Part shown: positions 27,560-32,504 of the stretch, in pieces
How the letters are laid out: each line of letters begins with the position of its first letter
How positions within the stretch are numbered: the first letter of the stretch is position 1
Assembly (NCBI RefSeq): GCF_014171475.1
Contig: NZ_CP048817.1
Location: 124,001 to 188,000, forward strand
Origin: Sphingomonas sp. So64.6b
Lineage (GTDB): Bacteria; Pseudomonadota; Alphaproteobacteria; Sphingomonadales; Sphingomonadaceae
DNA: 64,000 nucleotides
Direction of reading: 5' to 3'
Translations under genes and position numbers: made by a program
The notes under the pieces: generated by a model
Told to the model about the DNA's origin: nothing
The model's database searches: none
Seen by the model: only the letters and a program-made list of their open reading frames with translations

Positions 27560-27922
27560 ATGCGGAAGTATCTCGCTGTATTAATTGCGATGCTCCTGGC
27601 GGTAACTCCGGCGCACGCATGTCGAGTTGCGAAATATCCCATCGACCCGGGACTGACTCATTCGGATATCATCCTGGTGGGGCGGGTGTTCGACGTCAGC
27701 CTGGACGGCACAATTCGGGGAAAGTGGTTTAGCGTCAGGGTTGAGGCCGTCGTTTCAGGGGCATTCCCGGAGCCAACATACCGAACGGGCTGGGTCACCG
27801 GGCCGGGCGCTTGTGGGCCGACGGGACCGGACGTTGCCGAAGGTGATCAGGTCGCGGTCTATTTCCGCTATGTTGACGGAAAGCGTGTCGAACAGGGCTG
27901 GACGAAAATTCCTTCGAAATAA
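27560..27922 (+). CDS. Small secreted Cys-containing protein
   Basis: 120 residues. Signal peptide MRKYLAVLIAMLLAVTPAHA, then a mature protein starting at Cys21 (CRVAKYPID) with one more Cys in GPGACGPTGP. The beta-rich middle (DIILVGRVFDVSL, WFSVRVEAVVSG, DQVAVYFRYVDG) resembles small periplasmic OB/NTR-like proteins, but I cannot name a family. It follows the DUF3999 gene by 12 bases on the same strand and may belong to that operon. Confidence 0.7.
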   Translation: MRKYLAVLIAMLLAVTPAHACRVAKYPIDPGLTHSDIILVGRVFDVSLDGTIRGKWFSVRVEAVVSGAFPEPTYRTGWVTGPGACGPTGPDVAEGDQVAVYFRYVDGKRVEQGWTKIPSK

Positions 27923-28014
27923 GCTGTCGAGATCGGGGCGACCGGTGCAAAACCTGCGAACTCATGCCCGTATTCACCGCTCGTTCAAGTCTAGCTTCCT
28001 TAACCCCACCCGCC

Positions 28015-28026
28015 TATATCCCTCTC
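28015..28026 (+). promoter_or_regulatory. Possible -10 of thrS leader transcript
   Basis: TATATC at 28015-28020 lies seven bases before the leader ATG. If used as a -10 box, transcription would begin at or near the A of that ATG, giving a leaderless leader peptide as known for trpL of Sinorhizobium meliloti. The -35 region is weak (TAGCTT at 27992). No ribosome site precedes the leader ATG, consistent with this reading. Confidence 0.4.
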
Positions 28027-28107
28027 ATGAACCGCGCGAACGCCTTTCACATGACTACCACCACCCCGGTTTTCCGGGGGGATCTCGGCCTGCGCGTCAC
28101 TCGCTGA
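28027..28107 (+). CDS. thrS leader peptide with four Thr codons
   Basis: 26-codon frame, MNRANAFHMTTTTPVFRG then DLGLRVTR. Codons 10-13 are ACT ACC ACC ACC, threonine four times in a row, and a fifth Thr codon is near the end. It lies 147 bases before threonyl-tRNA synthetase and is followed by competing hairpins, the layout of a ribosome-mediated attenuator. When charged tRNA-Thr is scarce the ribosome would stall on these codons. An internal ATG at 28051 could also initiate it. Confidence 0.75.
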   Translation: MNRANAFHMTTTTPVFRGDLGLRVTR

Positions 28108-28163
28108 CGTCGCCTGTGCCGAGAGCCTCATCCGGGAACGGGTGAGGCGGCGTCTCTCTTCCG
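28064..28163 (+). promoter_or_regulatory. thrS transcription attenuator
   Basis: Three structures follow the Thr codons. CCCCGG-TTTT-CCGGGG (28064-28079) overlaps the last Thr codon. TCTCGGC (28083-28089) can pair GCCGAGA (28118-28124) as an antiterminator. GCCTCATCC (28125-28133) pairs GGGTGAGGC (28140-28148) around GGGAAC as the terminator, followed by pyrimidine-rich GTCTCTCTTCCGTTCC. GCC 28118-28120 can instead extend the terminator with GGC 28149-28151, making terminator and antiterminator mutually exclusive. Pairings are by eye, without energies. Confidence 0.7.
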
Positions 28164-28254
28164 TTCCTGAAAACCATCCATGACGCTTTCCCCAAGGCTT
28201 TTCCAAAGCGCCGCGGGTGTGCATAAGCCCGCCAAATCCACAGGAACGAATTCG

Positions 28255-30261
28255 ATGAACGACATGCTTTCGATCACGCTGCCCGATGGTTCGGTCCGTG
28301 CGGTCCCGCTCGGCACCACGCCGGCGGATATCGCCGCGGCGATCGGGCCTGGCCTGGCCAAAGCGGCGATCGCGGCGCGCGTCGATGGCGAGCTGCGCGA
28401 CATAATGCGCCCGTTCGAGGGCGATGCGCAGCTTGCGCTGGTCACGTCGCGTGACGAGGCCGATGCGCTCGAACTCGCGCGCCACGACTTTGCCCATGTG
28501 CTGGCCGAGGCGGTGCAGGCGCTCTTTCCGGGCACGCAGATCACGTTCGGCCCGTCGACGGACGATGGCTTCTATTATGATTTCGCGCCGAAGGATCGGC
28601 CGTTCACGGACGAGGACCTGCCCGCGATCGAGGCGGAGATGCGCAAGGTCATCGCGCGCGACGAACCGCTAATCCGCGAAGTGTGGAGCCGCGCCGACTT
28701 GATCGACCGCTGGCAGAAACAGGGCGAGAGCTTCAAGGCGGAATGGGCGGCCGAACTGCCCGAGGGCGAGGAACTGACGGTGTATCGCGCGGGCAAGGGC
28801 GCGGACGCCTGGCTCGACATGTGCCGCGGCCCGCATCTCGCCTCGACGGGGAAACTTGATCCGCAAGCGTTCAAGCTGACGCGCGTATCGGGTGCCTATT
28901 GGCGCGGTGACCAGAAGAACGCGATGCTGTCGCGCATCTACGGTACCGGCTGGCTCAACAAGAAGCAGCTCGACGCGCATCTCGTGCGGCTCGAGGAAGC
29001 GGCCAAGCGCGACCATCGCAAGATTGCGGCGGAGATGGACTTGTTCCACCTCCAGTCGGAAGCGCAGGGCTCGGTCTTCTGGCACCCCAAGGGCTGGACG
29101 ATGTGGCGGGCGCTCGAGGCTTATATGCGCCGCAAGCTCGATGCCGCCGGTTATAACGAGATCAAGACGCCGCAGCTGATGGATGCCAAGCTGTGGGAGG
29201 CATCGGGCCATTGGGGCAAGTTCCGCGAAAACATGTTCGTCGTGCCCGACGAGGTGCCGGGGACGGATCCCGACAAACCGGTGCTGACGGGCGCGGGCGA
29301 CCTGATGGCGTTGAAGCCGATGAACTGCCCGGCGCATGTCCAGGTCTTTCGCCAGGGGATCAAGTCGTACCGCGACTTGCCGCTGCGTCTCGCCGAGTTT
29401 GGCTGCTGCCACCGCAACGAGGCGCATGGCGCGCTGCACGGCATCATGCGCGTGCGGCAATTCACGCAGGACGATGCGCATATCTTCTGCACCGAGGATC
29501 AGATCATTTCGGAGACGCGGGCGTTCTGCGACCTGCTCGATGCGATCTACCGCGATCTCGGGTTCGAATCGTACATGATCAAGCTCGCGCTGCGCCCCGA
29601 CAACCGCGCCGGCGAGGACGCCCTGTGGGACCGTGCCGAGGGAGATCTGCGCACGGCGCTCGAACAGGCCGGGCGGCTCAACGACACCTACAGCTATGAG
29701 GAACTGCCGGGCGAGGGTGCGTTTTACGGCCCCAAGCTCGAATTCCACCTGACCGATGCGATCGGCCGGACCTGGCAGTGCGGTACGCTGCAGCTCGATT
29801 ATGTCATGCCCGAACGGCTCGACGCGTCCTATGTCGGGGCGGACGGCGAACGGCATCGCCCGGTCATGCTGCACCGCGCGATCCTCGGCACGTTCGAGCG
29901 TTTTCTCGGCATCCTGATCGAACATCATGCCGGGCGCTTCCCGCTCTGGCTCGCGCCGGTGCAGGCGGTGGTCGCGACGATCGTGTCGGACGCCGACGAT
30001 TATGCGCATGAGGTCGTCGCGAAGCTGGCGGCGGCGGGCTTGCGGGTCGAAAGCGACCTGCGCAACGAGAAGATCAACTACAAGGTGCGTGAGCACAGCC
30101 TGGCCAAGGTCCCCAACCTGCTCGTGCTCGGCAAGCGCGAAGCGGAGGAGGGCACCGTCGCGCTGCGGCAGCTGGGCAGTGAGCGGCAGCAGGTCATGCC
30201 GCTCGACGCGATGATCGCGATGCTCGTGGCGCAGGCCAGTCCGCCGGATCTGATTTCTTGA
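28255..30261 (+). CDS. thrS: Threonyl-tRNA synthetase
   Basis: 668 residues. It charges tRNA-Thr. The N-terminal TGS domain ([21 protein letters not shown]) is followed by the editing domain with HDFAH (HxxxH) and CRGPH, then the class II core with [11 protein letters not shown] (zinc Cys), motif 2 [18 protein letters not shown], a [12 protein letters not shown] segment, motif 3 around [18 protein letters not shown], and the anticodon-binding domain ending [15 protein letters not shown]. The start [12 protein letters not shown] has AGGA upstream; the frame is open 25 codons earlier through the attenuator and is rejected. Expression is probably controlled by the upstream leader. Confidence 0.97.
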
Positions 30262-31967: not shown

Positions 31968-32504
31968 ATACGTCCCCCCATGAACCGGCAGGCGCCACCG
32001 ATGAACGGCCCCCGCTTTAACGAATTCATCCAATCGCCCAAGGTCCGCGTGATCGATCAGGACGGCGAGAATCTCGGCGTAATGTATACCCGGGAAGCAA
32101 TGGAACAGGCGCAGAGCGTCGGGCTCGACCTTGTCGAAGTGTCGCCCAACGCGGATCCGCCCGTCGCCAAGTTCCTCGATGTCGGCAAGTTCAAGTACGA
32201 GGCGCAGAAAAAGGCCAACCTCGCACGCAAGTCGCAAAAGACGCAGGAGATCAAAGAGATCAAGATGCGTCCGAACATCGACGACCATGATTATGACACC
32301 AAGATGAAGAAGGTCGCCGAGTTCATCGGCGAGGGCGACAAGGTGAAGATCACCTTGCGCTTCCGTGGCCGTGAGCTGAGCCATGGCCAGCTCGGTATGG
32401 CGCTGCTCCAGCGCGTCCAGGCCGATGTCGTCGAGACCGCCAAGGTCGAAGCCTATCCGCGCATGGAAGGCCGGCAGATGCTGATGGTACTCGCGCCGAA
32501 GTGA
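31968..32504 (+). CDS. infC: Translation initiation factor IF-3, ATA start
   Basis: 178 residues if started at ATA (N-terminus [22 protein letters not shown]), 174 from the next ATG. The N-domain motif is [14 protein letters not shown]; the linker is lysine-rich; the C-domain carries [31 protein letters not shown] and the terminal [15 protein letters not shown]3 binds the 30S subunit and rejects non-canonical starts. An ATA initiator behind a well-spaced AGGAG fits the known autoregulation in which IF3 represses its own unusual start (AUU in E. coli). A GC hairpin follows at 32533-32560. Confidence 0.93.

Follow-up and report, generated by a model that had tools for sequence, protein, structure and literature searches.

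The threonine codon run and the RNA switch that stand before thrS, the gene for threonine–tRNA ligase, in the window (the whole stretch of 64,000 nucleotides of Sphingomonas DNA that was analysed) are confirmed as real, and they recur in relatives. We favour a reading, and hold it with good confidence, where the two together form a ribosome-mediated attenuator of thrS that reads the supply of threonyl-tRNA, with a leaderless leader frame and one extra switching helix. The threonine leader peptide, the antiterminator/terminator logic and the leaderless start of the original prediction are each supported by comparison and modelling.

The leader frame, on the forward strand at 28027–28107, has 26 codons from the ATG at 28027 to the TGA stop at 28105–28107 and would encode the peptide MNRANAFHMTTTTPVFRGDLGLRVTR, probably from a leaderless RNA. 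Four threonine codons in a row, ACT ACC ACC ACC, occupy 28054–28065; this frame had been predicted, with coordinates that hold to within a base or so. The frame ends about 150 nt upstream of thrS (28255–30261, forward strand), which has a Shine-Dalgarno-like CAGGA at 28241. The product of the downstream gene matches TIGR00418 at 632.5 bits (cut-off 383.65) and has the TGS, SAD, core and anticodon-binding domains of ThrS, so that the locus shows what is expected of an attenuator, a short frame before the matching gene in which codons for the regulating amino acid come in a run. An in-frame ATG at 28180 is disfavoured as the start of ThrS, as it overlaps helix b (see below) and relatives align from the MNDM/MSAMF position. 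Further along the same stretch, infC (IF-3) probably starts at the ATA at 31968–31970, eight bases after CAGGAG, and not at the ATG of the open reading frame (31869); by eye, reverse-strand loci of relatives have ATA (L012, L014) or ATC (L016) at this position, and L012 does not have the ATG that follows the infC ATA.

Upstream regions of thrS, up to 450 nt long, were scanned for frames of 8–45 codons with at least 4 Thr within 6 codons. Such a frame was found in 69 of 244 regions on the forward strand and in 0 of 244 on the reverse strand, counts that are not independent, as the regions and the tree described below include near-copies (L115/L317, L075/L186, L078/L195). The set also includes short regions (L031 with only 113 nt, L058 with only 101 nt), and our check failed to recognise the ThrS N-terminus in 7 of the 244. 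The same scan for Ala, Arg and Ser returned 33, 35 and 22 regions on the forward strand and 27, 36 and 17 on the reverse strand; on the reverse strand 52 regions had a Val frame, which probably mirrors the Thr run as its reverse complement. The original prediction was to be abandoned if relatives conserved neither the Thr run nor the stems, and it was not refuted by this comparison (69/244 vs 0/244).

The first search covered 61 genomes, 37 of them from the same genus including that of the window; the thrS start was obtained in 36 of these (G006 holds only a fragment). By eye, a Thr leader is present at 17 of the 36 and absent from 19, one of which (L031) is the region of only 113 nt, and as the threshold recovers 11 of the 36 it undercounts. 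In other families of the order, none of 14 upstream regions (fetched of 24) reached the threshold, and two of these loci (L040, L043) have frames with 3 of 6 Thr. Of 80 named loci, 17 reach at least 4 Thr in 6 codons; they belong to Sphingomonas, Blastomonas, Novosphingobium, Croceicoccus, Altererythrobacter, Allopontixanthobacter, Erythrobacter and Porphyrobacter, to less well named records, and in one case to the Rhodospirillaceae (L115). A family-wide draw, with thrS in 117 of 119 genomes and 114 upstream regions fetched, gave 41 regions at threshold, of which two without a -10 element (L165, L175) are probably chance matches. A class-wide draw of 86 genomes gave 3 of 68 regions from outside the family, one clear (L259), one possible (L267) and one weak (L257).

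A quickly built ThrS tree has 110 rows, and 31 of them carry a leader (25 called by threshold and 6 by eye). The leader requires 13 changes on it vs 27.3 with shuffled labels (0 of 500 shuffles as low), and it is therefore clustered but was gained or lost several times; L002, whose ThrS is the nearest in this tree, is without a leader. As judged from these sequences, the leader extends beyond this species to many genera of the Sphingomonadaceae, yet it is absent from many members. Within the genome of the window, four family searches for other synthetases gave 17 partly overlapping candidate loci that do not cover all synthetases, and among these only thrS combined a -10 element of score at least 6 with at least 4 of 6 residues matching the enzyme, the other hits being scattered Ser, Pro, Leu or Asp runs.

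A leader promoter can be proposed at 27992–28020 (forward strand), composed of a weak -35 element (TAGCTT, 27992–27997), a 17 nt spacer and the -10 element TATATC at 28015–28020. The latter stands where it had been predicted, with a gap to the leader ATG of six bases rather than the seven first written; a simple consensus scan of 27800–28400 returned no sigma-70-like site. In 67 of the 69 leaders a loose -10 match (score at least 5) occurs 4–9 nt before an in-frame ATG or GTG, at 6–7 nt in 55, although some of the 67 are poor and the consensus was chosen after the leaders had been looked at. With the score raised to at least 6, 61 of 69 leaders have the element before an in-frame start; among groups of in-frame starts from regions that have no leader, a matched control that is fairer than one by single start codons (338 of 2870), it is 460 of 2629. 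This placement fits the leaderless start that had been proposed: transcription would begin at the leader AUG or within a very short distance of it, and a ribosome would initiate there without a Shine-Dalgarno site.

The RNA from 28019 to 28172 folds with -72.1 kcal/mol (z -5.28; none of 200 shuffles reached so low an energy), and several helices, all on the forward strand, can be placed in it and just beyond. Helix P1 (1:2; CCCCGG-TTTT-CCGGGG, 28064–28079) appears in the fold, the alignment and the ribosome-state models; a hairpin on the last Thr codons had been predicted, and it is present, its overlap being two bases of the last codon. Helix 2:3 (28078–28129), which joins GGGG at 28078–28081 to CCTC at 28126–28129, is found in the stalled-ribosome fold of the window and in relatives, and it encloses P2 (TCTCGGC 28083–28089 with GCCGAGA 28118–28124), found in the same window fold. 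Helix P3 (GCCTCATCCG-GGAA-CGGGTGAGGC, 28125–28148) is again common to fold, alignment and ribosome-state models. The 3':4 helix (28133–28169) pairs 28133–28142 with 28160–28169 and excludes both P3 and a:b, the latter being a terminator-like stem (28149–28193) of GGCGTC (28149–28154) and GACGCT (28182–28187) with a weak U stretch, TTTCCCC, at 28187–28193. The end of the element had been put at 28163, which is too early, the 3' arm of the last stem, GACGC(T), being at 28182–28187. Segment 3 is common to 2:3 and P3, segment 3' is common to P3 and 3':4, and segment a sits in the loop of 3':4, so that a stalled ribosome should give 2:3 with 3':4 and an unstalled one P3 with a:b. Rfam returned no match at gathering score for the window and nine leader loci, the families without a match including the Thr operon leader and the T-box; at E≤10, the region 27960–28260 matched only P35 and Yar_3, both at chance level.

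After removal of two near-copies and of the likely chance matches L165 and L175, 65 of the 69 leaders remained for alignment, and from these we selected by eye 39 that belong to one common type, a choice that favours shared structure. In these 39, helix 2:3 is paired in 93.3% of cells with 5 pairs changed on both sides, 3':4 in 90.3% with 22 such cells, and P1 in 80.3% with 8 (0 of 500 shuffles in each case); P3 is paired in 95.6%, its one pair changed on both sides being reached by 482 of 500 shuffles. Sliding the partner strand gave a smaller paired share for P1, 2:3, P3 and 3':4, although the covariation score of P1 (0.142) is not above that of its version slid by one column (0.146). The column alignment does not support a:b (51.0% of cells, vs 71.2% at slide -2), because b is misaligned in it. 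A comparison of own with foreign arms needs no exact columns, and there own arms outpair foreign arms for all five helices in the 39 leaders, the permutations as good out of 2000 being 1 for P1, 0 for 2:3, 1 for P3, 0 for 3':4 and 0 for a:b. Many leader peptides of this alignment (L220 among others) end in an RGRxVA-like tail, because the GGGGGCGGTCGG arm of an RNA helix lies there; it need not reflect a function of the peptide.

When the RNA was modelled to the end of segment 4, the position of the ribosome selected between these exclusive, conserved helices. A ribosome stalled on the Thr codons, which had been predicted to favour the antiterminator, does so in the model, with 2:3 formed and 3':4 preferred over P3 in 35 of 39 leaders; with the ribosome at the stop codon P3 is favoured in 34 of 39, and with no ribosome (segments that include the last 9 nt of the Thr run) 3':4 beats P3 in 31 of 39. 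The window itself gives P1 and P3 with no ribosome, 2:3 and 3':4 when stalled, and P3 at the stop. Seven sequences of the Sphingomonas type were also modelled (the window, L004, L007, L015, L024, L032 and L102): 3':4 forms in 5 of 7 when stalled, P3 in 6 of 7 at the stop and in 4 of 7 with no ribosome, the exceptions being L004 and L007, which keep P3 when stalled, and L015, which keeps 3':4 at the stop. When the RNA includes b, a stalled ribosome puts 3':4 ahead of a:b in 27 of 39 leaders; a:b is ahead of 3':4 in 34 of 39 with the ribosome at the stop and in 28 of 39 with none. In the window at this length, the lowest-energy folds are reversed (P3 and a:b when stalled, 3':4 at the stop), so that the model rests on the cotranscriptional order of synthesis and termination is proposed rather than modelled for it.

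In the mechanism that we propose, a shortage of charged Thr-tRNA would stall the ribosome on the Thr codons, where it masks the 5' arm of P1. Segment 2 would then pair with segment 3, P3 would be blocked and the freed 3' segment would pair with segment 4; with 3':4 formed, a:b would be prevented and RNA polymerase would continue into thrS. If Thr-tRNA is ample, the ribosome would reach the stop codon and mask segment 2, P3 and a:b would form, and transcription would mostly end near 28187–28193. The switch thus has, as comparison and modelling support, one helix beyond the classical scheme: 2:3 frees 3', and 3':4 excludes a:b.

A second form was met in another alphaproteobacterial order (that of G230), where 11 genomes were searched and thrS was obtained from 10. 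A Thr-rich frame is found at 8 of the 10 loci; L320 is cut by a contig end and L318 shows no Thr-rich frame. The start directly follows GATATT, itself after TTGACA, in 6 of the 8 frames, L315 being cut at its ATG and L319 having another -10 element. A CCCTCC..GGAGGG terminator with TTTTTT is present at 7 of the 8 leader loci (7 of 10 thrS loci), and its CCCTCC can alternatively pair with a GGAGGG (GGGGGG in L313) inside the leader frame. The loci L259, L313–L317 and L321 have the textbook layout of a Thr attenuator before thrS, complete with a TTTTTT terminator. By its sequence, this form is a classical design with the same sign as that proposed for the switch of the window.

How transcription would end in the window is less plain. 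A canonical terminator at P3 (near 28150) was rejected, there being no U-run after P3, and a consensus scan of 27800–28400 returned no terminator-like site, so that by that criterion the region is without a canonical U-run terminator. In the 39 aligned leaders, the 10 nt after b contain a mean of 2.85 T vs 1.61 in the surroundings, with three or more T in 25 of 39 and four or more in 8 of 39. Among 14 Sphingomonas-type a:b stems picked by eye, TTTT stands at or directly after b in 7 and L015 has GCCCCTTTATGC; the other six (L004, L024, L032, L034, L035, L147) have no U-tract after b, five of these six have a T run before b, and the a:b loops without a U-tract are 19–28 nt, long for an intrinsic terminator. 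The pairing logic that had been predicted is therefore supported by comparison and modelling, with the qualification that many loci have a poor U-tract, or none, at the last stem, and intrinsic termination is plain from the sequence only in a subset of members.

These features leave some room for Rho, and it is possible, but not likely, that the same leader and switch act on Rho-dependent termination, with the pyrimidine-rich a–b loop accessible in the state with P3 and a:b and sequestered in that with 3':4. Pyrimidine-rich loops of 19–28 nt, the weak or absent U-tract and the consensus scan all agree with this; however, a usual rut site is longer than these loops, 7 of 14 loci have a TTTT that lies at b or directly follows it, and the terminators of the second order are clean, with TTTTTT. 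Some members could terminate intrinsically and others with the help of Rho.

The apparent U-tract may, on the other hand, belong to an internal promoter. CTTTTC (28198) and CATAAG (28222) stand 24 nt apart on the forward strand (28198–28227), a spacing that resembles a -35/-10 pair with a 17-nt spacer. CTT lies 24 nt before the CATAAG/CATGGC-like motif in 48 of 63 leader loci and 23 nt before it in 7 more (L001 was mis-anchored in this count and its 24-nt spacing read separately), and at 24 or 25 nt in 36 of the other loci, which number 102 and include some weak leaders. We consider it rather doubtful that thrS is driven mainly by this promoter and that the leader tunes only a lesser transcript from upstream: CATAAG/CATGGC makes a poor -10 element, and the Thr run, the leader -10 element and the covarying helices would be left unexplained. 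A related and equally speculative idea is a two-step attenuator in which 2:3, formed on stalling, serves only to release 3', after which 3':4 dismantles a:b as a third stem, the adjoining base run serving also as the -35 of an internal thrS promoter; we found no description of such a two-step attenuator in the open-access literature searched, and if it were true, one short stretch would carry both an attenuated and a basal start of the essential gene thrS.

In E. coli, ThrS represses the translation of its own mRNA; the gene is the same, the protein binds an operator and there is no leader peptide. It is improbable that ThrS acts likewise here through a tRNA-like operator at the conserved element before the start codon: this element is conserved with or without the leader, but no tRNA-Thr-like loop was recognised by eye, and such an operator could in any case coexist with the leader. 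Finally, P1 can extend into the Thr codons in many leaders, so that codons and structure are not independent, yet it is very hard to believe that an ACC/GGT-rich hairpin sequence produced the Thr run as a side effect and that the frame is untranslated, as the Thr codons upstream of P1 vary in number and stay in frame, an in-frame start stands just after the -10 element, and the same arrangement recurs between other flanks in the second order.

The attenuator that we favour belongs to a familiar class. E. coli thrABC and pheST, the latter encoding a tRNA synthetase, have leader-peptide attenuators with a codon run; unlike the window, they are not leaderless and are without the extra 3':4 / a:b tier. 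Closest by gene is Streptomyces lividans TK24, for which the available part of an RNA-seq study describes a leaderless thrL before thrS (PMC8079986), like the window a short Thr-containing frame, although with two Thr in 18 residues and in another phylum; that part reports that no U-rich terminator was found and describes no conserved multi-helix switch. Within the Alphaproteobacteria, the trpL leader of trpE(G) in Sinorhizobium meliloti is leaderless, its RNA beginning with the leader AUG, and stalling gives the antiterminator, as far as the accessible text of two papers goes (PMC7298713, PMC10117765); it differs in its Trp codons and in preceding a biosynthesis gene. In Bacillota, according to the available part of PMC12452182, thrS is under T-box control and transcription responds to tRNA charging; there, unlike in the window, the RNA binds the tRNA directly and there is no leader peptide.

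S. lividans was the sole case of a thrS leader peptide met in searches of the open-access literature; the main text of PMC2965389 mentions thrS 0 times and threonyl once, on E. coli, and the accessible portions of PMC2330054, PMC12452182 and PMC7509114 hold no thrS leader peptide. The kind of attenuator is already known, and the variant appears to be new. It would add to the Alphaproteobacteria a leaderless, codon-reading attenuator of thrS in two forms, and it would offer a test bed for leaderless translation that is coupled to transcription within the first bases of an RNA. For the cell, a shortage of charged Thr-tRNA would probably turn thrS up.
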